A stretch of DNA of 64,000 bases from Desulfitibacter sp. BRH_c19 (GTDB lineage: Bacteria; Bacillota; DSM-16504; Desulfitibacterales; Desulfitibacteraceae): positions 1 through 64,000 of the forward strand of contig LOER01000016.1 of assembly GCA_001515945.1 (NCBI GenBank). Direction: 5' to 3'. Below, piece by piece: positions 16,045 to 34,786 of this stretch (position 1 is the first letter of the stretch; the number at the start of each line of letters is the position of its first letter). The position numbers and the translations under genes were made by a program. The notes below the pieces were generated by a model, which ran no database searches, was not told where the DNA came from, and saw nothing but the letters and a program-made list of their open reading frames with translations.

Positions 16045-16065
16045 AAGTGAAAATTAATATCCTTA

Positions 16066-16297
16066 AATGCAATGATCAGGAAGAAGTAAGTTAGAATTCT
16101 TTTCGCAGAGAGCTGGGTATAGTGTAAACCGGTAAAAGAAACTGCTGAATGCCACCTGTGAGCATGAGAACTGAAATAGAAGTAGGTTCTTAACGAAATT
16201 TCTCGTTAAAGAAAAAAGTGGGTAAATAGATACTTATTTGCTTATTAGGGTGGTACCGCGGGCTATCTCTCGTCCCTTGACGAAAGATAGTCTTTTT
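16066..16297 (+). promoter_or_regulatory. T-box leader controlling the regulator/aminotransferase operon
   Basis: Seen directly: a stem I 5' side with AAGAAGTAAG and the AGAGAG bulge at about 16106; the T-box sequence AGGGTGGTACCGCG at 16247-16260; and a terminator stem CTATCTCTCGTC/GACGAAAGATAG (16263-16274 with 16279-16290) followed by TCTTTTT. Known mechanism: uncharged tRNA pairs with the specifier and with the T-box, favouring antitermination and expression of the downstream genes. The specifier is not clear: the strand CTGAAATAGAAGTAGG (16171-16186) offers GTA (Val) or, in strict spacing, TAG. The amino acid sensed is therefore left open. Confidence 0.93.
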
Positions 16298-24167: not shown

Positions 24168-24349
24168 TTTATCCGATGACTATCGCCACTAGCCTTGCAT
24201 GGGTTCAGCTATGTCAACAAGTTGACAAGTTTCACTCCAAGACTCCTATCTTCTACAAGTAGGAGATAAGTGGCGCTACGTCCCTGGATAACGGATTCTA
24301 AAACTCAGATGTAGTCAAAACTCCACCTGAGTTCAAGAATCCTGTTTAT
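24168..24349 (-). ncRNA. Structured RNA, copy A (unrecognised family)
   Basis: This stretch of about 182 nt begins at the last base of tRNA-Arg and matches a stretch at 34536-34724. Shared blocks, read on the minus strand, are ATAAACAGGATTCTT, AGGTGGAGTTTTGACT, CCGTTATCCAGGG, CCACTTATCTCC, GGAGTCTT and CATCGGATAAA. Predicted helices are GGATTCT/AGAATCC around an apical hairpin, the long-range TTATCC/GGATAA (24287-24292 with 24169-24174), CGCCACT/AGTGGCG (24269-24275 with 24184-24190) and CTCCTA/TAGGAG. It is probably read from the tRNA promoter and ended by 24125-24157. No open frame is shared with the other copy. I cannot name the family. Confidence 0.75.
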
Positions 24350-24425
24350 GGCGTGCCCGACAGGATTCGAACCTGCGACCTCCGGACTCGGATTCCGTCA
24401 CTCTATCCGACTGAGCTACGGGCAC
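24349..24425 (-). tRNA. tRNA-Arg (CCG)
   Basis: Minus strand: the acceptor GTGCCCG pairs with CGGGCAC, with discriminator G and an encoded CCA. The anticodon loop ATCCGAG gives anticodon CCG. The top pair of the anticodon stem (27:43) is an A.G mismatch; the other four pairs are sound. A structured RNA follows with no gap. Confidence 0.93.
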
Positions 24426-24437
24426 ATACCTATATTA

Positions 24438-24466
24438 AGTATATATTAGTAGCTATACTTAGTCAA
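24438..24466 (-). promoter_or_regulatory. Promoter of tRNA-Arg
   Basis: On the minus strand TTGACT (24466-24461), a 17-bp spacer and TATACT (24443-24438) lie 12 bp before the tRNA 5' end. It probably drives both the tRNA and the RNA behind it. Confidence 0.85.
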
Positions 24467-24606
24467 ATGCTCGAAATGCTTACAATTACCTGATTGCTCT
24501 ACAAAGCATATAGGTATACTAATACATTATAGGTTCAATATATTGCCCTAAGCTTTTTTATGATGTAATATAATCAAAAAGGTATATTTATGACAGGGAG
24601 ATAGTC

Positions 24607-25230
24607 GTGAGTAAAATAACCAATCAAAATCATAATTTAGAAACAACTTTAAGAATTGCTATTGAAAACTTTCAAGTGAAGGATCCATCTGAAATGTCCT
24701 GGAAAAGTAAATGTAGTTTTAACACGGAAAAAAAGACTTTTATGGTTCCCTTTATGAGGAAAGATTTTTGCGTTAGTTATCCTAGTGGAGAGATAGACTT
24801 TTGTAACAACTCTGAGGAAGTTCCTATCATATGGAAAATATTGATGCTTCATTATTTAGTTAGAGCTACTGGAACCCCTTTGACTGGAAATAGTATATCT
24901 TACAAAGAATTGCCAGGTGGAGATATTTATTTTAATCCTTTTAAGAAGAGAACTATTTTACCCTTCTTAAAAATATTTGGTACTAATCCACGAAAACTTT
25001 TAGAAATTACTGAGTCCATTGGTGGTGTAGTAAGTAACATGGGGGACTATAGTGTAACCATAAATGTGTTACCACGTATTCCAATCACTTATGTTTTATG
25101 GGAAGGTGATGATGAGTTTCCTCCGAATGCAACAGTTCTCTTTGATGAAACTGCAAAAGAATATCTACATACAGAGGATTTTGCATTTGTTGCAAGTCTT
25201 ACAGTTTATGAAATGGCAAAAATGTTTTAA
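24607..25230 (+). CDS. DUF3786 domain protein
   Basis: This 207-residue cytosolic protein has DUF3786 hallmarks: ILMLHYLVRATGTPLTG, the YKELPGGDIYFNPF segment and PRIPITYVLWEGDDEFPPNATVLFD. Function is not established. The family is frequent in acetogens and corrinoid-using anaerobes, which fits this window. The start is GTG at 24607 behind GGGAGAT. It is followed after 28 bp by S-adenosylhomocysteinase, so a joint role in methyl-group metabolism is possible but inferred from context only. Confidence 0.85.
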   Translation: MSKITNQNHNLETTLRIAIENFQVKDPSEMSWKSKCSFNTEKKTFMVPFMRKDFCVSYPSGEIDFCNNSEEVPIIWKILMLHYLVRATGTPLTGNSISYKELPGGDIYFNPFKKRTILPFLKIFGTNPRKLLEITESIGGVVSNMGDYSVTINVLPRIPITYVLWEGDDEFPPNATVLFDETAKEYLHTEDFAFVASLTVYEMAKMF

Positions 25231-25258
25231 TAAAATATAGATAGGAGTGTTGTTATTA

Positions 25259-26509
25259 ATGAAAGAATCCATGATTAGAGATATAGGTTTGGCTCCTCAT
25301 GGTCAAAAAAAATTACAATGGGTGAAGAACCATATGCCTATTATGAATCAGTTGGAAAGTGACTTTTTTCAAAACCAGTACTTTAAAGGCCATAAGGTAG
25401 TAGTTTGTTTGCATCTCGAAGCAAAAACAGGCTATTTAGCACAAGTTATAAAAGCTGGAGGTGCAGAAGTAGCCGTAGTAGCCAGTAATCCTCTTTCAAC
25501 TCAAGATGATGTAGTAGCAGCTCTTGTACAGGATGGCATAAAAGCCTATGCATGGCACGGTGCATCTGATGAAGAATACTCTGAACATTTAAATGCTGCT
25601 CTAGATTTTAGGCCAGACTTAATAATTGATGATGGTGGCGATTTAGTAGCGCGTATACATAAAGAACGTCCGGAACAAATTAAGGAAATTATTGGGGGAT
25701 GTGAGGAAACTACTACTGGGATATTACGATTAAAGGCTATGAGTAAGGAGAAGCAATTGAAATTTCCGATGATGGCAGTTAATGATGCTTACTGTAAATA
25801 TTTATTTGATAATAGATATGGTACTGGTCAATCTGTGTGGGATGGACTAAACCGCACCACTAATTTAGTTGTTGCTGGTAAAAATGTAGTTGTTATTGGA
25901 TATGGATGGTGTGGCAAAGGTGTAGCTATGAGAGCAAAGGGGTTAGGAGCTAAGGTAATAGTTACAGAAATTGATCCAATAAAAGCAATAGAGGCACATA
26001 TGGATGGTTTCAAGGTTATGACAATGCAGGAAGCAGCAGGTATTGGTGACTTTTTCATCACAGTTACTGGAAACTGTAATGTTATACGAAAAGAACACTT
26101 CCTGAAAATGAAAGATGGAGCTATTTTAGCTAACGCAGGACATTTTGATATAGAAATTTCTAAAATTGATCTAGCAGAAATTTCTAATGAAAAAAAGACG
26201 GTTAGGCCAAATGTAGAGCAATATTGTATGCAAGATGGTAAAAGCATTTATCTATTAGCTGAAGGTAGGCTTGTTAATCTAGCTGCGGGTGATGGCCACC
26301 CAGCTGAAATTATGGATTTAACATTTGCAATACAGTCCTTATGTCTTCAGTATGTTATGAATAATAAAGATAATTTAAAAGGAGATGTGTATCCTGTACC
26401 TTATGAGATAGATAAGAAGGTTGCTAACCTGGGTCTTAGTACTTTAGGTATTAAAATTGATTCTTTGACTAAAGAACAAATTAGTTATTTAGAATCTTGG
26501 GATGCGTGA
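25259..26509 (+). CDS. ahcY: Adenosylhomocysteinase
   Basis: This NAD-dependent enzyme of about 416 residues reversibly splits S-adenosylhomocysteine into adenosine and homocysteine, removing the product of SAM methylations. Signatures are HLEAKTGYLA, IIDDGGDLV, EETTTGILRL, MMAVNDAYCKYLFDN, GLNRTTN, the NAD site VIGYGWCGKGVA, and NAGHFDIEI. It is the shorter form without the eukaryotic insertion. ATG 25259 is preferred because GGAG at 25244-25247 is correctly spaced; an in-frame GTG at 25247 overlaps that site. It ends with a terminator. Confidence 0.95.
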   Translation: MKESMIRDIGLAPHGQKKLQWVKNHMPIMNQLESDFFQNQYFKGHKVVVCLHLEAKTGYLAQVIKAGGAEVAVVASNPLSTQDDVVAALVQDGIKAYAWHGASDEEYSEHLNAALDFRPDLIIDDGGDLVARIHKERPEQIKEIIGGCEETTTGILRLKAMSKEKQLKFPMMAVNDAYCKYLFDNRYGTGQSVWDGLNRTTNLVVAGKNVVVIGYGWCGKGVAMRAKGLGAKVIVTEIDPIKAIEAHMDGFKVMTMQEAAGIGDFFITVTGNCNVIRKEHFLKMKDGAILANAGHFDIEISKIDLAEISNEKKTVRPNVEQYCMQDGKSIYLLAEGRLVNLAAGDGHPAEIMDLTFAIQSLCLQYVMNNKDNLKGDVYPVPYEIDKKVANLGLSTLGIKIDSLTKEQISYLESWDA

Positions 26510-26515
26510 TGTATT

Positions 26516-26542
26516 AAAGGAGTTCTTTAGGAACTCTTTTTT
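26516..26542 (+). terminator. Rho-independent terminator of ahcY
   Basis: The stem GAGTTC/GAACTC, extended by A-T pairs, has loop TTTAG and is followed by TTTTTT. Confidence 0.85.
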
Positions 26543-26582
26543 CAAAAATAATTGTTAAATAAATGATAGGGGAGGCGTTACC

Positions 26583-27692
26583 ATGAAACTTCAAGAGTAT
26601 CAAGGCAAGAATATCTTTAGAAACTATGGTATTGAAGTACCCAGGGGTAAAGTTGCCAGAAGTCAAGCCGAAGCATTTGAAATAGCTAAAGAGCTTAAAG
26701 AAACTGTTTTAAAGGTACAGATTTTATCTGGCAAAAGAGGGAAAGCCGGTGGAATCCAATTCGCATCAAGCCCAGATGAAACACTAATTAAAGCAAAAGA
26801 TTTGCTTTCTACGAATTTTCTGGGCTTTAACGTTGAGCATTTACTAATTGAAGAAAAAATATCTATTGAAAAAGAATATTATGTTGCGGTAACTTATGAC
26901 TACAAAATGAAATGTCCGGTTATGTTAGTCTCTGCTCAGGGAGGTATGGATATAGAGGATGTTCCTGAAGCATTAATCATTAAAACTTATATTAAACCAA
27001 ATACAAGATTAGAGCAATATCAAGGAAGAGAAATAGCTGTTAATACTGGTATTAAAGGTAAACAAATTAATATATTTTCATCATTACTTGTTAAATTAAT
27101 GGACATTTTTTTAGATTGTGATGCAGAACTTGTTGAAGTTAACCCATTAGTTCTTTCAAAGGAAAGATTTATTGCTGCCGATTCAAAGGTTGTTATTGAT
27201 GATGATGCACTCTTTAGGCAAACTGATTTGCCTCATAATGATGAAAAAACTGAAGTGGAACGAAAATGTCATGCAATTGGACTTTCCTATGTAGAACTAG
27301 ATGGTGATATTGCTATTATGGCTAATGGCGCAGGAATAACCATGGCAACATTAGATTTGATAAATCATTATGGAGGAAGCCCTAATAATTTCTTAGATGC
27401 TGGCGGTGGGGCAAATGAGGAACAGACAAGAAAAGCCTTAGAATTATTGATTTCCACTAATCCAAAGGGAATTTTCATAAACATCTTTGGAGGCATCACT
27501 AGGACAGACGATGTTGCTAGAGCTTTTCTTAAGGTCAAAGATCAGCTCGAAATTAACGTTCCAGTGGTAATCAGGCTAGTTGGTACTAACCAAAAAATTG
27601 CTCTGGATTTACTTCAATCTGCTGGAATCGAAGCTTTTTCTGATATGGAGCAGGCTGCCAAAACAATTGTACAAAAGGTGAGGGGGTACTAA
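26583..27692 (+). CDS. sucC: Succinyl-CoA ligase beta subunit (ATP-grasp)
   Basis: This 369-residue ATP-grasp subunit begins MKLQEYQGKNIFRNYGI. It has the nucleotide-binding KVQILSGKRGKAGG segment, the AELVEVNPLV metal motif and the CoA/phosphate loop FLDAGGGANEEQTRKAL with GIFINIFGGITR. It binds ATP or ADP and succinate. It pairs with SucD directly downstream (1-bp gap). In the methylmalonyl route it interconverts succinate and succinyl-CoA with substrate-level phosphorylation. It is the first gene of a nine-gene operon that runs to 33775. Confidence 0.93.
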   Translation: MKLQEYQGKNIFRNYGIEVPRGKVARSQAEAFEIAKELKETVLKVQILSGKRGKAGGIQFASSPDETLIKAKDLLSTNFLGFNVEHLLIEEKISIEKEYYVAVTYDYKMKCPVMLVSAQGGMDIEDVPEALIIKTYIKPNTRLEQYQGREIAVNTGIKGKQINIFSSLLVKLMDIFLDCDAELVEVNPLVLSKERFIAADSKVVIDDDALFRQTDLPHNDEKTEVERKCHAIGLSYVELDGDIAIMANGAGITMATLDLINHYGGSPNNFLDAGGGANEEQTRKALELLISTNPKGIFINIFGGITRTDDVARAFLKVKDQLEINVPVVIRLVGTNQKIALDLLQSAGIEAFSDMEQAAKTIVQKVRGY

Positions 27693-27693
27693 A

Positions 27694-28578
27694 ATGGCTA
27701 TTCTTTTAAACAAGGAGTCTAAAGTTCTTATACAAGGTATTACAGGTAATCAAGGCTCATTTCATTGTAAACAGATGTTAGATTATGGAACAAATATTAT
27801 TGCTGGTGTATCTCCTGGTAAAGGCGGTAACACAGTACATGATGTTCCCGTATATGATAGTGTATCTATGGTCAAAAATCATCTAGGTAAAATTGATGCC
27901 AGTATTTTATTTATCCCCGCTTCCTTTGCTAAAGATGCTGCACTTGAGGCTATAAACAATCATGTATCCATGATTGTGTTAATCACCGAACACATTCCAT
28001 TAAAAGATGCTACATACATAATGGATGCAGCAAAAGATAGGGGAACCATTGTTTTAGGGCCTAATACATACGGGATTATCAGCTCAGGTTTATCTAAAGT
28101 TGGAATTATGCCAAGTCAATATTTTCAGCCAGGACCAGTAGGCGTTGTTAGCAGAAGTGGTACATTAAGTTACGAAATCGTCGGAAATCTTTACAATAGT
28201 GGATTAGGCACTTCCACAGTTGTTGGCTTAGGTGGAGATAGAATAATAGGATTAAATTTTCCTGAAATTCTAGAAGAATTCCAGAAGGATTCTGAAACTA
28301 AGATCATTGTACTAATAGGGGAAATTGGTGGTAGTGCCGAAGAAGATGCCGCTGAATATATAAAGGGTAATGTTACTAAGCCTGTTGTAGCTTATCTAGC
28401 AGGTAAAAGTGCCCCTCCAGGTAAAAGGATGGGGCATGCTGGAGCAATTATAGAGAAAGGAATGGGTACTTTTGAAGCTAAGGTTAAAGCATTAGAGAAT
28501 GTAGGTGTTTTTGTTGCTTCTGAGCCTTCCCAAGTACCTATCTTAATAAGAAAGAATCTTCAACTAGGAGGACAGTAA
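27694..28578 (+). CDS. sucD: Succinyl-CoA ligase alpha subunit
   Basis: This 294-residue subunit has a Rossmann CoA-binding domain ([19 protein letters not shown]) and [12 protein letters not shown]. The phosphohistidine is in [10 protein letters not shown] near residue 247. It forms the heterodimer with SucC. It overlaps the next gene's start by one base (28578), giving translational coupling with the mutase. Confidence 0.94.
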
Positions 28579-30254
28579 TGATGAGAGAAGATAAAAAACA
28601 AGCCTTGTCAGAGAAGTTTAAAACCTGGACAGAAAAAACTGATAAGTTTGTTTTAAAAAGACCAGAAAGAAAAAGTAATTTTCTTACAGATTCTAACATT
28701 CCTGTTCAGAGGACTTACACACCTCTTGATTTGGAGGAATTTGACTATTTAGACCAATTGGGTATGCCTGGAGAATATCCATATACCCGAGGTGTTCAAC
28801 CAACAATGTATAGGGGGAGAAATTGGACCATGCGCCAGTATGCTGGCTTTGGAACTGCTGAAGAAACCAACAGTAGATTCAAATTCTTATTAGAGCAGGG
28901 GCAGACGGGGCTTAGTGTAGCTTTTGACTTGCCTACTCAAATAGGCTATGACTCTGATCATTACCTCGCAATGGGTGAAATAGGTAGAGTTGGTGTTGCA
29001 ATAGACTCTTTGGCTGATATGGAAATCCTATTTGATGGTATTCCCTTAGATAAAGTAAGTTGTTCCATGACAATTAATGCTCCTGCTGCTATTTTGCTTG
29101 CGATGTATGTAGCAGTCGCTGAAAAACAAGGAGTTTCGGCAGAAAAAATATCTGGTACAATTCAAAATGATATCTTAAAAGAATATGTTGCAAGGGGGAC
29201 ATATATTTTTCCTCCTAAAGAGTCTATGAAGTTGATTACAGATATCTTTGCCTACTGTTCAGAAAACGTTCCCAATTGGAATACAATCAGCATTAGCGGT
29301 TATCATATTCGGGAAGCGGGTTCAAATGCGGTTCAGGAAGTAGCATTTACCCTTGCCAATGGCATTGCTTATGTGGAAGCTGCTGTTAATACAGGTTTAA
29401 ATGTAGATGAATTTGCTCCACGTCTATCTTTCTTTTTTAATGCCCACACGAATTTTTTTGAAGAAGTCTGCAAATTCAGAGCGGCTAGACGGCTCTGGGC
29501 TAAAATTATGAAAGAAAGATTTGGTGCTAAGGATCCAAAATCTTTGATGTTAAGATTCCATACTCAAACCGGCGGGAGTACATTAACAGCTCAACAACCT
29601 GATGTAAATATAATGAGAGTTGCTTATCAAGCCCTAAGTGCTGTTCTTGGGGGGACTCAGTCCTTACATACCAACTCTAAGGATGAAGCTTTAGCCCTGC
29701 CAAATGAACACTCTGTGCGTATTGCCCTAAGAACTCAGCATGTAATTGCTGAGGAAATAGGTGTTACAGATACTGTAGATCCCCTTGCAGGATCTTATTA
29801 CATTGAAAAGCTTTCAAACGAGATTGAAGAGAAGGCTTATGAATATATTAAGCAAATTGATTTATTAGGTGGATCACCAAAAGCAATTGAAGAAGGATTT
29901 ATCCAGAAAGAAATACAAGAGAATGCTTATAATTATCAAAAACTTATTGAAAACAACAAGAAAGTGGTTATTGGAGTTAACAAATATGTCATTGAAGAAC
30001 AACCTCCAACAGATTTACAAAAGTTAGATCCAGAAGTTGCACAAAGACAGTTGCAAAAGCTACATAAGGTTAAAGAAAACAGGAATTCGGATAAAGTAGC
30101 CGCCTCACTAGATAGCTTGAAGATAGCTGCTCAGGGTTCAACTAATTTGATGCCTTTTATTGTAGATGCAGTAAAAAATTATGCTACTCTAGGAGAAATG
30201 TGTGGGATCCTTAGAGAGGTTTACGGTGAATATGAACAAAAGATCAATTTTTAG
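28578..30254 (+). CDS. mcmA1: Methylmalonyl-CoA mutase large (catalytic) subunit
   Basis: This 558-residue B12-dependent mutase TIM-barrel subunit has [73 protein letters not shown] and the substrate-histidine segment [16 protein letters not shown]. It isomerises succinyl-CoA and methylmalonyl-CoA. The cobalamin-binding domain is encoded separately by the next gene, as in archaea and many Clostridia. The ATG that overlaps sucD is preceded by CTAGGAGG. Confidence 0.96.
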
Positions 30255-30275
30255 TACAGGAGGTTACATTAGATT

Positions 30276-30668
30276 ATGGATAAACACATTCGAGTTCTAA
30301 TTGCTAAGGCTGGATTAGATGGCCATGACAGAGGAGCCAAAATAATTGCTCAAGCATTAAGAGACGCAGGGATGGAGGTAATATATACAGGCCTTAGACA
30401 AACCCCTGATCAAATAGTACAAACAGCTTTGCAGGAGGATGTTCAGGTAATCGGTATAAGCTGTCTTTCTGGGGCCCATATGTACTTAATGCCACCCATA
30501 GTTGAAAAACTTAGAGAAAATGAAGCTTCTGAAATCATTGTATTAGGGGGTGGGGTAATTCCAGCAGAGGATATTCCTGACCTAAAAAAGCTAGGAGTTA
30601 AAGAAGTATTTACACCAGGAACTCATACTTCAAAGGTTATAGAATTTATAAAAAATAACGTTCTATAA
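30276..30668 (+). CDS. mcmA2: Methylmalonyl-CoA mutase cobalamin-binding subunit
   Basis: This 130-residue flavodoxin-like B12 domain has the signature D15-x-H17-x-x-G20 (LDGHDRG), where H17 ligates cobalt, followed by GISCLSGAH and VLGGGVIP that line the nucleotide-loop pocket. It completes the mutase with the upstream catalytic subunit. TACAGGAGG precedes the start. No meaB/argK chaperone gene lies in the operon. Confidence 0.96.
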
Positions 30669-30767
30669 TAGCTGACTATCATGTTAGCTCAGATTACATC
30701 TTACTTACTAATTTATGCTAAGGAATATCAGATTATGTTGAAACTAGATAGTATGAGGAGTGATTAT

Positions 30768-31169
30768 ATGATCAGCAAAATTGATCATGTAGGAGTAGCT
30801 GTAAGTAATTTAAATGAAGCGAAGAAGCTTTATGAAGAAGTTTTTGGATTAGAAGTTTCTGGTACTGAAGTAGTTGAGGAGCAAAAGGTTAAGGTTGCCT
30901 TTATCCCGACTGGAAGTAGTAAGATTGAATTGCTTGAAAGCACAGATCCAGATGGACCAGTTGCAAAATTTATAGAAAAAAAAGGCCAAGGAATTCAACA
31001 CCTTGCACTAAGAGTAAACAATTTGGCAGAAGCTCTTGCAGAAGTTAAGGGTAAGGGAGTTCGTGTAATAGATGAAAAACCAAGATATGGAGCGGGAGGT
31101 GCAAAAATAGCTTTTTTACATCCTAAAGATACAAATGGTGTACTGATTGAGCTTTGTGAGAGGGAATAA
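30768..31169 (+). CDS. mce: Methylmalonyl-CoA epimerase
   Basis: This 133-residue VOC-fold protein starts [15 protein letters not shown] and has [16 protein letters not shown] and GIQHLALRV, with metal-binding H and E residues at the usual places. It interconverts (R)- and (S)-methylmalonyl-CoA. The ATG at 30768 follows ATGAGGAG at good spacing; an in-frame ATG at 30681 would add 29 residues not found in the family and lacks a ribosome site. Confidence 0.94.
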
Positions 31170-31186
31170 TTTTGGAGGGGATGCTA

Positions 31187-32026
31187 ATGAGAGAAATTGA
31201 ATTTAACAAAATAGTGAATGCAATTTCTGCACTATGTATTAGAATTAACTATGAATTAGAAGAAGATGTTGTGAACAGCTTTACCAATTCAATAGAAGGA
31301 GAAAAATCTCAGGTTGGAAAAGAGATTTTGGAGTTATTAATAGAAAATGCAAGGATAGCCAAAGAGGAACAGGTTCCTATGTGTCAAGATACTGGAACTG
31401 CCGTTGTATTTATAGAGCTTGGTCAAGACGTGAACATTACAGGAGGACCACTAAATAGAGCAGTTGAAGAAGGTATTCGTAAAGGATATTTAGAAGGTTA
31501 TCTACGCAAATCAATGTGTAATCCTTTTACAAGAGCTAACACAGGTGACAACTGTCCCCCCATAATTCACAGCCAGGTTGTACCTGGTGATAAACTTTCA
31601 ATTTCAATTGCAGCAAAGGGCGGCGGGAGTGAAAATATGAGTCGGCTTGCTATGCTTACTCCATCTGCAGGAATAGATGGCATAAAGAAGTTTGTAGTAG
31701 ATACTGTAGATCAAGCAGGTCCAAATCCTTGCCCACCACTTGTAGTCGGAATTGGTGTAGGAGGAAACTTTGAAACGTGTGCAATATTAGCAAAAAAAGC
31801 TCTGATGAGAAAATTTGGTGAACCTAGTAAAGATGAAGCTGTTGCAAAAATAGAAAAAGAATTGTTATCTGAGTTAAATGAAACAGGAATTGGCCCATCA
31901 GGTTTTGGTGGTACAACTACAGCTATAGGAGTGCACATGGAAGTGATGCCATGCCATATTGCAAGCTTACCAGTTGCTGTTAATTTAAATTGTCATGCAG
32001 CACGTCATGGGAAAGTTGATTTATAG
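31187..32026 (+). CDS. Fumarase/tartrate dehydratase alpha subunit
   Basis: This 279-residue iron-sulfur hydratase alpha chain has cluster cysteines in QVPMCQDTGTAV, GDNCPPIIH and GGNFETCA, and the GPSGFGGTTTAIGVH substrate loop. Next to malic enzyme and the methylmalonyl genes it is best read as fumarase (fumarate to malate), although tartrate dehydratases share the fold. The ATG at 31187 follows TGGAGGGG at 7 bp; an upstream in-frame TTG (31172) lies inside that site. Confidence 0.9.
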   Translation: MREIEFNKIVNAISALCIRINYELEEDVVNSFTNSIEGEKSQVGKEILELLIENARIAKEEQVPMCQDTGTAVVFIELGQDVNITGGPLNRAVEEGIRKGYLEGYLRKSMCNPFTRANTGDNCPPIIHSQVVPGDKLSISIAAKGGGSENMSRLAMLTPSAGIDGIKKFVVDTVDQAGPNPCPPLVVGIGVGGNFETCAILAKKALMRKFGEPSKDEAVAKIEKELLSELNETGIGPSGFGGTTTAIGVHMEVMPCHIASLPVAVNLNCHAARHGKVDL

Positions 32027-32039
32027 AGGAGGTTAAAGC

Positions 32040-32600
32040 ATGGGAGATATTAGAATTACTACACCCATGGATACAGAACAAGTTCTTAAACTAAAATCAG
32101 GTGACAAGGTATTGATTTCTGGAACTATTTATACTGCTAGAGATGCAGCTCATAAAAGATTAATTGATATGATAGAAAAAGGCGAAAAACTTCCATTTGA
32201 TATTCGTGGACAGATAATATATTATGTTGGACCTACTCCTCCAAAACCCGGAAAAGTTATAGGGTCTGCTGGACCAACAACTAGCATTAGAATGGATGCT
32301 TATGCACCCACTTTATTAGAGTTAGGGTTAAAAGGAATGATCGGTAAAGGCCTACGATCTCAGAAGGTAAAAGATGCTATCATTAAGTATAAGGGTGTCT
32401 ATTTTGCTGGTGTTGGAGGAGCAGCGGCGGTTATTTCTAAATCAATAGTTAGTGCAAAAGTAATTGCCTTTGATGAGCTAGGTACTGAAGCTATTAGAGA
32501 ATTAGTTGTAAAGGATTTTCCAGTTGTTGTTGTCAATGACTGCCATGGAAGAGACTTATATATAGAAGGAAGAAAATTATTTTTGAAAGGTGGTAATTAA
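32040..32600 (+). CDS. Fumarase/tartrate dehydratase beta subunit
   Basis: This 186-residue beta chain completes the class I hydratase. The swivelling domain has LKSGDKVLISGTIYTARDAAHKR, YVGPTPPKPGKVIGSAGPTTS and GVGGAAAVISKSI. It follows the alpha gene by 13 bp with GAGGAGG before its ATG. The active site is shared with the alpha chain. Confidence 0.92.
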   Translation: MGDIRITTPMDTEQVLKLKSGDKVLISGTIYTARDAAHKRLIDMIEKGEKLPFDIRGQIIYYVGPTPPKPGKVIGSAGPTTSIRMDAYAPTLLELGLKGMIGKGLRSQKVKDAIIKYKGVYFAGVGGAAAVISKSIVSAKVIAFDELGTEAIRELVVKDFPVVVVNDCHGRDLYIEGRKLFLKGGN

Positions 32601-32602
32601 TT

Positions 32603-33775
32603 ATGACAATTCAAGAAGAAGCTCTTAAGCTCCATGAGGAAGCAAAAGGAAAATTAAGTATAGTATCTAAAGTTCCTGTGAATAACCAAAAAGATTTAAG
32701 TTTAGCATATACTCCAGGGGTAGCTGAACCATGTAAAAGGATAGCTGAAAACCCTGAGGAGTCATACAAATATACTTCCAGAGGAAATATGGTTGCTGTT
32801 ATTACTGATGGGACTGCTGTGCTTGGCTTAGGTGACATAGGGCCATTAGCTGCAATGCCAGTAATGGAAGGAAAATCTGTTCTTTTTAAAGAATTTGCAG
32901 GTGTTGATGCAATCCCCATTTGCTTGGACACCAAAGATCCAGAAAAAATTATCGAAACTGTAAAACTTATTGCACCAAGCTTTGGTGGTATAAATTTGGA
33001 GGATATAGCGGCTCCAGCTTGTTTTATCATTGAAGAAAGGTTAAAGGCAGAGCTTGACATTCCTGTGTTTCATGATGATCAGCATGGAACTGCAGTAGTA
33101 GTTATGGCTGCTCTACTAAATTCCTTAAAGGTCGTTAAAAAGGAAATTGCTGATATTAAGATAGTTGTATTGGGTGCGGGATCGGCTGGAATAGCTATTG
33201 TGAAACTCTTACTTGGACTAGGTTTAAAGAATGTTATTATGTGCGATCGTAAGGGTTCAATATACAAGGGTAGAGATAGTTTAAACCCTGCAAAAGAAGA
33301 AATTGCCAATGTAACCAATTTAGAAAAGTATCAGGGTGATTTAGAAGGAGCACTAGTTAACTCAGATGTCTTTATAGGAGTTTCAGGGCCTGGTTTGGTA
33401 TCAAAAGATATGATTGCAAAAATGGCCAAAGATTCAATTATAATGGCAATGTCAAATCCAGTACCTGAAATAATGCCTGATTTAGCTAAAGAAGTTGGTG
33501 CAAAAGTTATATGTACTGGAAGGTCTGATTTTCCTAATCAGGTCAACAATGTCTTAGCATTTCCAGGAATATTTAGAGGTGCTTTAGATGTTAGAGCTAG
33601 TGATATAAATGAGGATATGAAATTAGCAGCTGCTTATGCAATTGCTGGTTTAATAACAGATGCAGAATTAAAACCTGAATATGTCATACCTGAAGCCTTT
33701 GATGAAAGGGTTGCAAGGGCCGTAGCCAATGCTGTATCTGAAGCAGCTAAAAAAAGTGGGCTGGCACGTATTTAG
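32603..33775 (+). CDS. NAD(P)-dependent malic enzyme
   Basis: This 390-residue enzyme oxidatively decarboxylates malate to pyruvate, or runs in reverse with CO2. Motifs are LSLAYTPGVAEPCK, TDGTAVLGLGDIG, the metal site NLEDIAAPACF, PVFHDDQHGTAVV, the Rossmann VVLGAGSAGIA and AMSNPVPEI. It has the short bacterial form without a phosphotransacetylase tail. As last gene of the operon it links the C4 acids to pyruvate, bypassing malate dehydrogenase. It is followed by the hairpin at 33805. Confidence 0.94.
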   Translation: MTIQEEALKLHEEAKGKLSIVSKVPVNNQKDLSLAYTPGVAEPCKRIAENPEESYKYTSRGNMVAVITDGTAVLGLGDIGPLAAMPVMEGKSVLFKEFAGVDAIPICLDTKDPEKIIETVKLIAPSFGGINLEDIAAPACFIIEERLKAELDIPVFHDDQHGTAVVVMAALLNSLKVVKKEIADIKIVVLGAGSAGIAIVKLLLGLGLKNVIMCDRKGSIYKGRDSLNPAKEEIANVTNLEKYQGDLEGALVNSDVFIGVSGPGLVSKDMIAKMAKDSIIMAMSNPVPEIMPDLAKEVGAKVICTGRSDFPNQVNNVLAFPGIFRGALDVRASDINEDMKLAAAYAIAGLITDAELKPEYVIPEAFDERVARAVANAVSEAAKKSGLARI

Positions 33776-33804
33776 AAAATGTTAATTAGTAATTATATAT
33801 TTCC

Positions 33805-33850
33805 TCCCTGCATAGACATGTATTAAAGCTTGTCTACAGGGAGTTTTTTT
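33805..33850 (+). terminator. Terminator overlapping the next gene's ribosome site
   Basis: A stem TCCCTG/CAGGGA plus TAGACA/TGTCTA (33805-33818 with 33831-33842, 2-nt bulge) is followed by seven Ts (33844-33850). The ATG of the next gene starts at 33851, and its SD (AGGGAG) lies in the 3' arm. Confidence 0.8.
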
Positions 33851-34423
33851 ATGGATATCGTTATATCTATTGTAGTCGCTTTAGTAATAGGTATTTTGCC
33901 ATTAAAAAAGTTATTTGCATTTTACTTTTTTTCCTACGAAGATTTATACATGAAACACTATGATTTAAAGAAGTGCTATGATATATGGGGCCATATTTCT
34001 TATATTTTGCCCTTATTAGATTTCTTAAAAGGGCCTATGTTATACTATGTTTTAAAGATTCTTAATATCCAGGCTAGTCCACTTGTAGCAATTATTCTTA
34101 TTGTCCTATGGAAGGTCAACCCCCTGAAGGATTTCTTCCTTGGAAGAGGTATGAGTTTTTTTATGGGAATATCGTTAATTATCAATATTGAAATCTTTAG
34201 GCTTGTAATACTAATATATCTATCTTTATTAATTCTAAGTCGTTACCAAAGTATAGCTAGCTTTTTAACAGGTATTCTAGCAACTCCTGTGGTCTTTCTC
34301 AACACTAGTTTTACATTAATTGAGTTAACAGTAGTAATAATATGTTCAGGGCTTGTTCTTATATCATATAAAAGTTCGTTTTACCAGATATTTAATAAGA
34401 GATTTTTTCACCTTTCCCAGTAA
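33851..34423 (+). CDS. PlsY-like polytopic membrane protein
   Basis: This 190-residue, very hydrophobic protein has about six membrane segments. It loosely follows the PlsY acyl-phosphate:glycerol-3-phosphate acyltransferase pattern: LLDFLKGP resembles motif D-x-x-KG, and FFLGRGMSFFMG resembles the GKGVAT loop. The conserved GSGN-type loop is replaced, so activity is uncertain. The start at 33851 is chosen because AGGGAG is 7 bp upstream and the first helix begins at once. That site is buried in a terminator hairpin, so expression may depend on readthrough. Confidence 0.6.
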   Translation: MDIVISIVVALVIGILPLKKLFAFYFFSYEDLYMKHYDLKKCYDIWGHISYILPLLDFLKGPMLYYVLKILNIQASPLVAIILIVLWKVNPLKDFFLGRGMSFFMGISLIINIEIFRLVILIYLSLLILSRYQSIASFLTGILATPVVFLNTSFTLIELTVVIICSGLVLISYKSSFYQIFNKRFFHLSQ

Positions 34424-34467
34424 CTTGAATAAGATAATAGAGAACTTCAATCAAGGAGGGGAAGGAC

Positions 34468-34536
34468 ATGAAAGTATATTTTATTCCAGTTCCAAATTTT
34501 CTAAAAGGTTTTCTTAGAAAAATTTTAAAACAATGA
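34468..34536 (+). CDS. spoVM: Stage V sporulation protein SpoVM (22 residues)
   Basis: This 22-codon ORF encodes MKVYFIPVPNFLKGFLRKIL plus KQ and lies behind a near-perfect ribosome site AAGGAGGGG (34454-34462). It matches the length, charge pattern and key positions of Bacillus subtilis SpoVM (MKFYTIKLPKFLGGIVRAML...): MK-Y-I at 1-6, a proline near 9, and an amphipathic basic C-terminal helix. SpoVM inserts into the convex forespore membrane and recruits SpoIVA for coat and cortex assembly. It is too short for routine gene finding. Its stop codon abuts structured RNA copy B. Confidence 0.85.
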   Translation: MKVYFIPVPNFLKGFLRKILKQ

Positions 34537-34724
34537 TAAACAGGATTCTTTATTCAGGTGGAGTTTTGACTCCATCTAAATATTTAGAAACCGTTATCCA
34601 GGGGCTTAGTACCACTTATCTCCCACCTACGCCATTAGGTCTAGCATTGTGATTTTTGCAATGCGTAGAAATACCAGTGCAAAGCAAGAGGTGGGAGTCT
34701 TAATGGTAGTTAGCCATCGGATAA
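34536..34724 (+). ncRNA. Structured RNA, copy B (unrecognised family)
   Basis: This copy of about 189 nt matches the RNA at 24168-24349 from ATAAACAGGATTCTT to CATCGGATAAA. Helices are the AGGTGGAG/CTCCATCT hairpin (loop TTTTGA), the long-range TTATCC/GGATAA (34594-34599 with 34719-34724), TACCA/TGGTA (34610-34614 with 34704-34708) and CTCCCACCT/AGGTGGGAG (34620-34628 with 34689-34697). It also has an extra hairpin GCATTG/CAATGC absent from copy A. Paired positions differ from copy A in a compensating way. It starts at the last base of the spoVM stop codon and ends before a strong terminator. Confidence 0.75.
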
Positions 34725-34786
34725 AAAGTTGGCTTGAGCCAGTACATGTGTGGCGCCAAGTATAAGTTATCTCTGATAGTGTAAAT

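Follow-up and report, generated by a model that had tools for sequence, protein, structure and literature searches.

The question raised by this window, a stretch of 64,000 nucleotides from Desulfitibacter sp. BRH_c19 (contig LOER01000016.1, positions 1 to 64,000), is whether two related sequences in it, one directly behind a tRNA-Arg gene and the other behind a 22-codon open reading frame (ORF) that we take to be spoVM-like, are RNA genes or copies of something that moves. A preliminary description had presented them as a pair of paralogous structured RNAs tied to these two genes. Our results do not support such a pair: about 50 copies of the same sequence are dispersed over this genome, with fixed ends and a target word, and both loci are empty in congeners. 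Both sequences are very probably copies of a non-autonomous mobile DNA element.

At the level of the pair itself, most of what had been reported holds. The coordinates are nearly exact, copy 1 being longer by one base (34536-34725), and each copy does start at the end of the gene before it. The shared blocks and the lack of a common reading frame are also recovered, as the copies align over their full length (local score 76.5 vs 22.5 for the best of 300 shuffles) and none of the frames stays open along both. Inside, copy 1 carries one optional module, D, and copy 2 another, E, which accounts for the different filling between the conserved blocks. The covariance model used for searches, R2 (with rough E-values, its calibration being short; a first model, R1, had a poor structure and was not used for searching), retrieved no third copy in the window, two further weak matches being antisense overlaps of the same copies.

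In the window's own genome (hereafter G000), the copy at 34536 used as a query gave 76 matches, many of which are pieces of one copy, and R2 gave 50 genome-wide, including a few pieces or antisense re-matches (150 of 1455 candidates were scored in this run). We compared 46 stretches, namely 38 around matches, seven found by pattern and the window, sharing its own copy. They hold 45 copy starts, located by the left end, copies without a left end falling outside this count. A matching right end was located for 41 of these starts; two of the other four reach contig ends and two are unexplained. The element measures 128 to about 412 bp, with a core of about 133 bp (a case of 683 bp, L150, which is among the 41, is probably two unrelated ends joined, leaving 412 bp as the largest credible copy). 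The core consists of ATAAA, a hairpin H1, a short linker and a second hairpin, H2, running from TTATCC to CGG-ATAAA. The left end is fixed, as ATAAACAGG in G000 and mostly as ATCAACAG in another genome with copies, G014, and the right end is a CGG beside ATAAA or a near variant. The left pentamer is ATAAA in 44 of the 45 G000 copy starts and the right one in 33 of the 41 copies with a located right end, the lesser constancy of the right word being as expected if it is host DNA. No terminal inverted repeats were seen, the two ends (ATAAACAGG... and ...CGG(ATAAA)) not being inverted copies of each other by eye.

Optional modules occur at four set points: B lies in the H1 loop, C, which has two hairpin versions, is placed between H1 and H2, D sits at the H2 tip, and E lies within the 3' strand of H2. 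They make 18 combinations among the 41 complete G000 copies, as scored by short motifs and with the number of D units counted. The 56-bp D module can be tandem: one complete copy has three units, and contig C27 ends in an array of about nine or more. No autonomous parent with the same ends was seen among the G000 matches, no search having been aimed at a large parent.

The sites of both window copies are empty in the two congeners, G001 and G002, where a terminator follows the spoVM-like gene at once and the tRNA-Arg is also element-free. For 12 further G000 copies, searches with the joined flanks retrieved spanning empty sites for five, the other seven giving one-sided, separated or no matches. 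Thirteen more copies were checked in two other genomes, six in G014 and seven in G018. Clear empty sites in G098 or G131 were found for four of the six G014 copies, two of them exact to the base; for copy L135, G185 has an empty site whose junction is blurred, the comparison with G098 being unclear, and no empty site was retrieved for copy L132. The seven G018 copies sit at the same places in the congener G134, as judged by the gap between the flanks. In all, eleven sites are empty in relatives, the two window sites and nine more, and the window copies and the other copies are insertions: the repeat has both the many dispersed copies and the empty sites in relatives that mobile elements have in general. 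Two points count against so clean a picture, namely that G131 keeps a short remnant of the 3' end of the element at the L014 site, and that divergence has blurred the empty-site junctions at L046, L028, L044, L004, L131 and L134.

The two exact G014 sites are the most informative regarding the junction. With the element in parentheses, the first reads GTCATCTC-ATAAA-TTCCCGG when empty and GTCATCTC(ATCAACAG...CGG)ATAAATTTCCGG when filled, and the second reads GTTAA-ATAAA-AATAAG and GTTAA(ATCAACAG...CGG)ACAAAAATAAG, respectively. The filled sites thus have the form (ATCAA...CGG)ATAAA, with ACAAA in one of them, while the empty ones hold a single ATAAA. Since the host has one ATAAA and the left word of the filled site is ATCAA, the left pentamer appears to be coded by the element and the right one to be the host target. 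This arrangement, a target word at one end and an element-coded word at the other as in IS200/IS605 elements, is found at the two exact sites and approximately at the others, two further and less exact G014 sites having GTAAA and ATATT in the relative. An ordinary miniature inverted-repeat transposable element (MITE), moved by a DDE transposase and duplicating a 5-bp ATAAA target, would also leave ATAAA at both ends of most G000 copies, in which both words are ATAAA and a duplication looks the same as its absence. However, five of the eight G014 copies read have ATCAA as their left word, and the two exact empty sites of such copies have ATAAA, so that the left word is not a copy of the target; simple target duplication is thereby argued against, no duplication being present at either exact site, and the lack of inverted ends also speaks against a MITE, which we consider improbable. 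Upstream of the tRNA-Arg, G002 (L181) has a fragment of the present repeat family, TTAGTGACTTAGCTATCGGATAAA, where G001 (L184) has ACATAAAGTTGAC, perhaps a further ATAAA site.

The surroundings of the copies vary. The gene arrangements around 43 G000 copies, transcribed by hand from the listing of neighbours and tallied, were 16 ++, 11 --, 9 +- and 7 -+. The copies are intergenic in any orientation, none was seen splitting a long ORF, and three overlap short ORF calls of 76 to 125 codons; in six, the preceding ORF uses the TAA within the left ATAAA as its stop codon. The strong terminators said to end both window copies do exist as hairpins. Nevertheless, they lie outside the element, and by eye a similar hairpin stands behind the same genes at the empty sites of the congeners. 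We also rejected placement between a gene and its terminator as a general rule, as strong folds are not significantly commoner beside the copies than at other intergenic ATAAA sites: folds of -14 or lower were found on the right side of 17% of 41 copies vs 9% of 193 control sites (either side, 20% vs 13%), and rank tests of the flanking folds gave p values of 0.57 (right) and 0.84 (left). The features of the two window copies and of their host loci are listed in Table 1.

Table 1. Positions, in the window, of the two copies of the repeat, their parts and their host genes.
Feature	Position	Strand	Remarks
Copy 1	34536..34725	+	Core with a single D module; immediately follows the spoVM-like ORF; R2 121.5 bits
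Copy 1, left pentamer ATAAA	34536..34540	+	Read as element-coded
Copy 1, hairpin H1	34543..34592	+	GGATTCT...TTCAGGTGGAG / CTCCATCT...AGAAACC; from folds and pair counts
Copy 1, hairpin H2	34594..34724	+	TTATCC/GGATAA; GGCTTAGTACCAC/GTGGTAGTTAGCC; CTCCCACC/GGTGGGAG; from folds and pair counts
Copy 1, optional module D	34630..34685	+	56-bp hairpin at the H2 tip; tandem in some other copies
Copy 1, right pentamer ATAAA	34721..34725	+	Read as host target word
Copy 2	24168..24349	-	Core plus module E, without D; directly behind tRNA-Arg(CCG); R2 95.9 bits
Copy 2, optional module E	24191..24238	-	GGAGTGAAACTTGTCAACTTGTTGACATAGCTGAACC...; within the 3' strand of H2
tRNA-Arg(CCG), host gene	24349..24425	-	Last base is the start of copy 2
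Host ORF MKVYFIPVPNFLKGFLRKILKQ	34468..34536	+	22 codons, presumed spoVM-like; stop TGA here, TAA in both congeners

The compensating change of paired positions, which had been taken to indicate selection on RNA shape, is real. In an alignment of 18 copies from three genera, double changes were found at 14 of 47 pairs, amounting to 77 such cells vs 30.3 in shuffles and at most 19 with the partners slid. The TACCA/TGGTA and CGCCA/TGGCG versions were joined there by a third, CACCG/CGGTG, the CTCCC/GGGAG stem also holds, and TTATCC/GGATAA is kept without double changes. In addition, DNA folds of the copies lie far below those of shuffles (z of -8 to -11). Little compensation accompanies the variation of the outermost pairs (TTAT with the right ATAA), as would also be expected of a right word derived from the host.

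The mismatches allow RNA to be weighed against DNA, as a helix maintained as RNA would be expected to tolerate G-U but not A-C. After removing the eight weakest rows (antisense re-matches) from the 62 of alignment A3, 54 rows remained for these counts, several per genome. For the 30 pairs with a Watson-Crick share of 90% or more, we counted 26 G-U vs 22 A-C cells, and in all pairs but one 59 vs 60. In contrast, a set of 21 distinct tRNAs taken from the available loci gave 35 G-U and 0 A-C, a control that is generous to RNA, as ARAGORN selects for pairing. One count goes the other way, since G-U leads A-C 89 to 66 once a single H1 pair dominated by G-U is included. Moreover, one copy folded on both strands as DNA gave nearly equal energies of -36.8 and -33.4 kcal/mol. 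Covariation is present, as in functional RNAs, without wobble being tolerated far above A-C, and the mismatches being about symmetric between strands suggests that the shape is read as DNA, in single-stranded hairpins or a cruciform. The conserved secondary structure that had been proposed thus stands, with its compensation, and its RNA nature is not supported; our reading is that DNA hairpins are under selection or are maintained mechanically.

A family of functional non-coding or cis-regulatory RNAs, kept for RNA shape and with many paralogues, would explain the strong covariation and the folds far below shuffles, and some copies directly behind genes may be transcribed. Nevertheless, there are about 50 copies, sites empty in relatives, all four gene arrangements and large optional modules within the fold, to which must be added a G-U count hardly above that of A-C and two strands that fold almost equally well in the one copy for which both were folded. 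An RNA gene or cis-regulator, the least probable of the explanations considered, was rejected on the grounds of the number of copies, their orientation, the empty sites and the symmetry of the mismatches. Slightly less remote, and still very improbable, is an RNA-copied element resembling a short interspersed nuclear element (SINE), whose transcript would be reverse-transcribed in trans with priming at ATAAA. It would agree with the strong fold, with the lack of a visible terminal inverted repeat and with the absence of a classical target duplication at the exact sites, but not with the near-symmetry of G-U and A-C, and few own-genome matches lack the left end (by eye), although 5'-truncated copies would be expected. 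The SINE-like and MITE alternatives, like the recombinase discussed below, are other ways to move the same element.

No known RNA class was recognized by Rfam either, as the preliminary description had found by eye: Rfam 15 gave no match reaching the gathering score over either window copy, and a lenient search of seven loci with other copies gave only sub-threshold matches over the repeat. Its hits in the window were tRNAs and a T-box leader (RF00230, 133.6 bits) at 16063-16280. A PyrR binding site (RF00515, 58.8 bits) was observed at L016:1747-1843, near but outside a G018 copy.

Homologues with covariation in other genomes, which had been named as a check, were looked for with the covariance model and found. 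At an E-value of 0.001 or better, R2 matched the family in 39 of 398 genomes and 32 of 266 genera of the phylum; eight candidates were scored per genome, so that copy numbers are lower bounds, and several of the weakest carriers have one near-threshold match that may be due to chance. The repeat has thus spread among many Clostridia-like bacteria. A copy was also present in one of 78 named loci surrounding an unrelated gene, namely L085 of Clostridiales bacterium 38_11. Carriage by phages or plasmids was rejected, as no copy matched in the collections against which it was tested: the window copy was unmatched in both, a G018 copy in plasmids and a G014 copy in phages. One exact pattern searched in viral contigs was not found.

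Regarding its movement, the element is probably mobilized in trans by an enzyme encoded elsewhere, which would cut at the two pentamers and insert the element next to ATAAA. Our best lead, not a result, and one that we hold with less than even confidence, is a Y1 (HUH) transposase of the REP/IS200 type. Read along the opposite strand, host TTTAT is followed by the element and an element-coded TTGAT or TTTAT end, which is the IS200/IS605 layout. The site could be selected by pairing of the interhairpin TTAT with either end. Using an E-value of 0.001, a Y1 transposase was matched in 30 of 39 carriers vs 195 of 359 other genomes (Fisher p 0.0066), and the long REP-type group in 19 of 39 vs 98 of 359 (p 0.0087), in tests that ignore kinship and genome size and treat genomes that are not independent samples. 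This long group is present in G000 and G018, its best NCBIfam match being REP_Tyr_transpos, just under the cut-off for the G000 protein tested. Another observation concerns a Y1 protein of G000 (L192, C26:222806), the C-terminal part of which weakly matches the DnaA family (NCBIfam, E 0.00035).

Several results weigh against the Y1 lead. No significant repeat match was found beside the Y1 genes examined (23 loci by BLAST; 20 by model, best E 1.2), so that none of them was seen to carry the ends of the repeat or to have the repeat as a neighbor. Nor does every carrier have a Y1 match: nine of 39, including G131, G279, G351 and G109, each with at least eight copies, lack a Y1 match. A strand-specific route such as that of IS200/IS605 might give an orientation bias, and none with replication was found in three single-contig genomes (12 of 24 copies, two of them weak, with the terminus assumed opposite dnaA); the oriented GC skew in G000 is likewise positive for 25 copies and negative for 19. 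Lastly, the putative guide is a single one shared by the two hairpins and located between them, whereas one 5' of each hairpin is published for IS608; it shows no covariation with the ends, and some distant members have lost it.

The main rival to a Y1 enzyme, somewhat less likely in our view, is a site-specific (tyrosine or serine) recombinase exchanging a short ATAAA core, as suggested for bcr1. Strand exchange at such a core would leave the element-coded left and host-derived right pentamers, and the carriers without a Y1 match are in its favor. However, a core of 5 bp lacking recognizable arm sites would be atypical, and the two conserved hairpins would be left without an obvious role. The passages on bcr elements in PMC6542083 also describe their mobility as possibly 'site-specific recombination-like' with TTTAT repeats, the other strand of ATAAA.

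Among known repeats, the closest by description are bcr1 (for TTTAT), BOX (for its modules) and the REP/IS200 group (for hairpins and a one-sided target word), PMC3733652 being, in the part concerned, among the sources for these comparisons. The bcr1 element of the Bacillus cereus group (and bcr2-3) is described in sections of PMC6542083 and PMC3446304 as small (100-400 bp), intergenic, high-copy and MITE-like, with movement linked to TTTAT. By these published descriptions, it resembles our repeat in size, intergenic location, copy number and the word TTTAT, which is ATAAA on the other strand. In contrast, the first bcr element is there reported only from the B. cereus group, while the present repeat occurs in 32 genera. 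BOX, from Streptococcus pneumoniae and S. suis, is according to the relevant part of PMC3049150 a repeat of 67-637 bp with outer modules and inner ones that are absent or repeated, with predicted stem-loops, and is deemed parasitic and non-autonomous; the modular build is similar by that description. Nevertheless, BOX is reported there with terminal inverted repeats and target duplications, neither of which was found here, and the optional modules of our repeat stand at four different points. The guide logic of IS200/IS605 elements is outlined in portions of PMC6006769 and PMC8266576; in these elements, the 5' word is the target's and the 3' word the element's. Their likeness to our repeat, shared with REP/REPIN (TnpA-REP, RAYT), lies in hairpins near the ends without inverted termini, a host word on one side and an element-coded word on the other, a possible guide pairing, and the long RAYT-like Y1 genes of G000 and G018; the differences are the lack of a repeat-flanked Y1 gene, the one shared guide and the missing strand bias. 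REPs are also described in the text of PMC6006769 concerned as species-specific in sequence, which the present family is not. No description of this family was found in the open-access literature searched.

The modules provide further observations. In G000, 56-bp D copies or arrays reach contig ends (C27:6698-7255 in L031, and the ends of C47 in L038 and of C22 in L043), where the assembly is apparently interrupted. The D hairpin (GTTCTAGCATT...AATGCGTAGAAATACCAGT) is also present inside different repeat types, in G002 (L160, L161), G001 (L155, L157) and G000 (L027:5290-5490), as if modules had been exchanged between families. Module B of G000 holds AGGATTAG and module C the complementary CTAATCCT (e.g., L017 and L018), together in some copies and apart in others. 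Finally, an orthologous minimal element of about 58 bp in G001 (L154) and G002 (L159) resembles the start of H1 fused to the end of H2 at a shared GGTGGAGTC/GGTGGGAGTC word.

Recognizing the two sequences as insertions removes a false RNA-gene candidate, and the simple comparison of G-U with A-C shows how RNA covariation can be imitated by a DNA repeat. The analysis also delimits a large family of repeats, retrieved with one model in 32 of 266 genera, where comparable small repeats are described, in the sections concerned of PMC6542083 and PMC6006769, as specific to a species or group. For the host, copies lie at the ends of genes, and the stop codon of the spoVM-like gene differs from that of its congeners at the insertion point. 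The exact empty sites and the target word make the mover of such orphan small repeats testable here. A bolder possibility, which we regard as unlikely, is that of a phylum-wide family of DNA elements of conserved shape in which the internal TTAT pairs with either end and programs insertion at ATAAA, through an enzyme not yet linked to such repeats, with modules swapped between families. If true, it would be a naturally modular and possibly retargetable insertion system.

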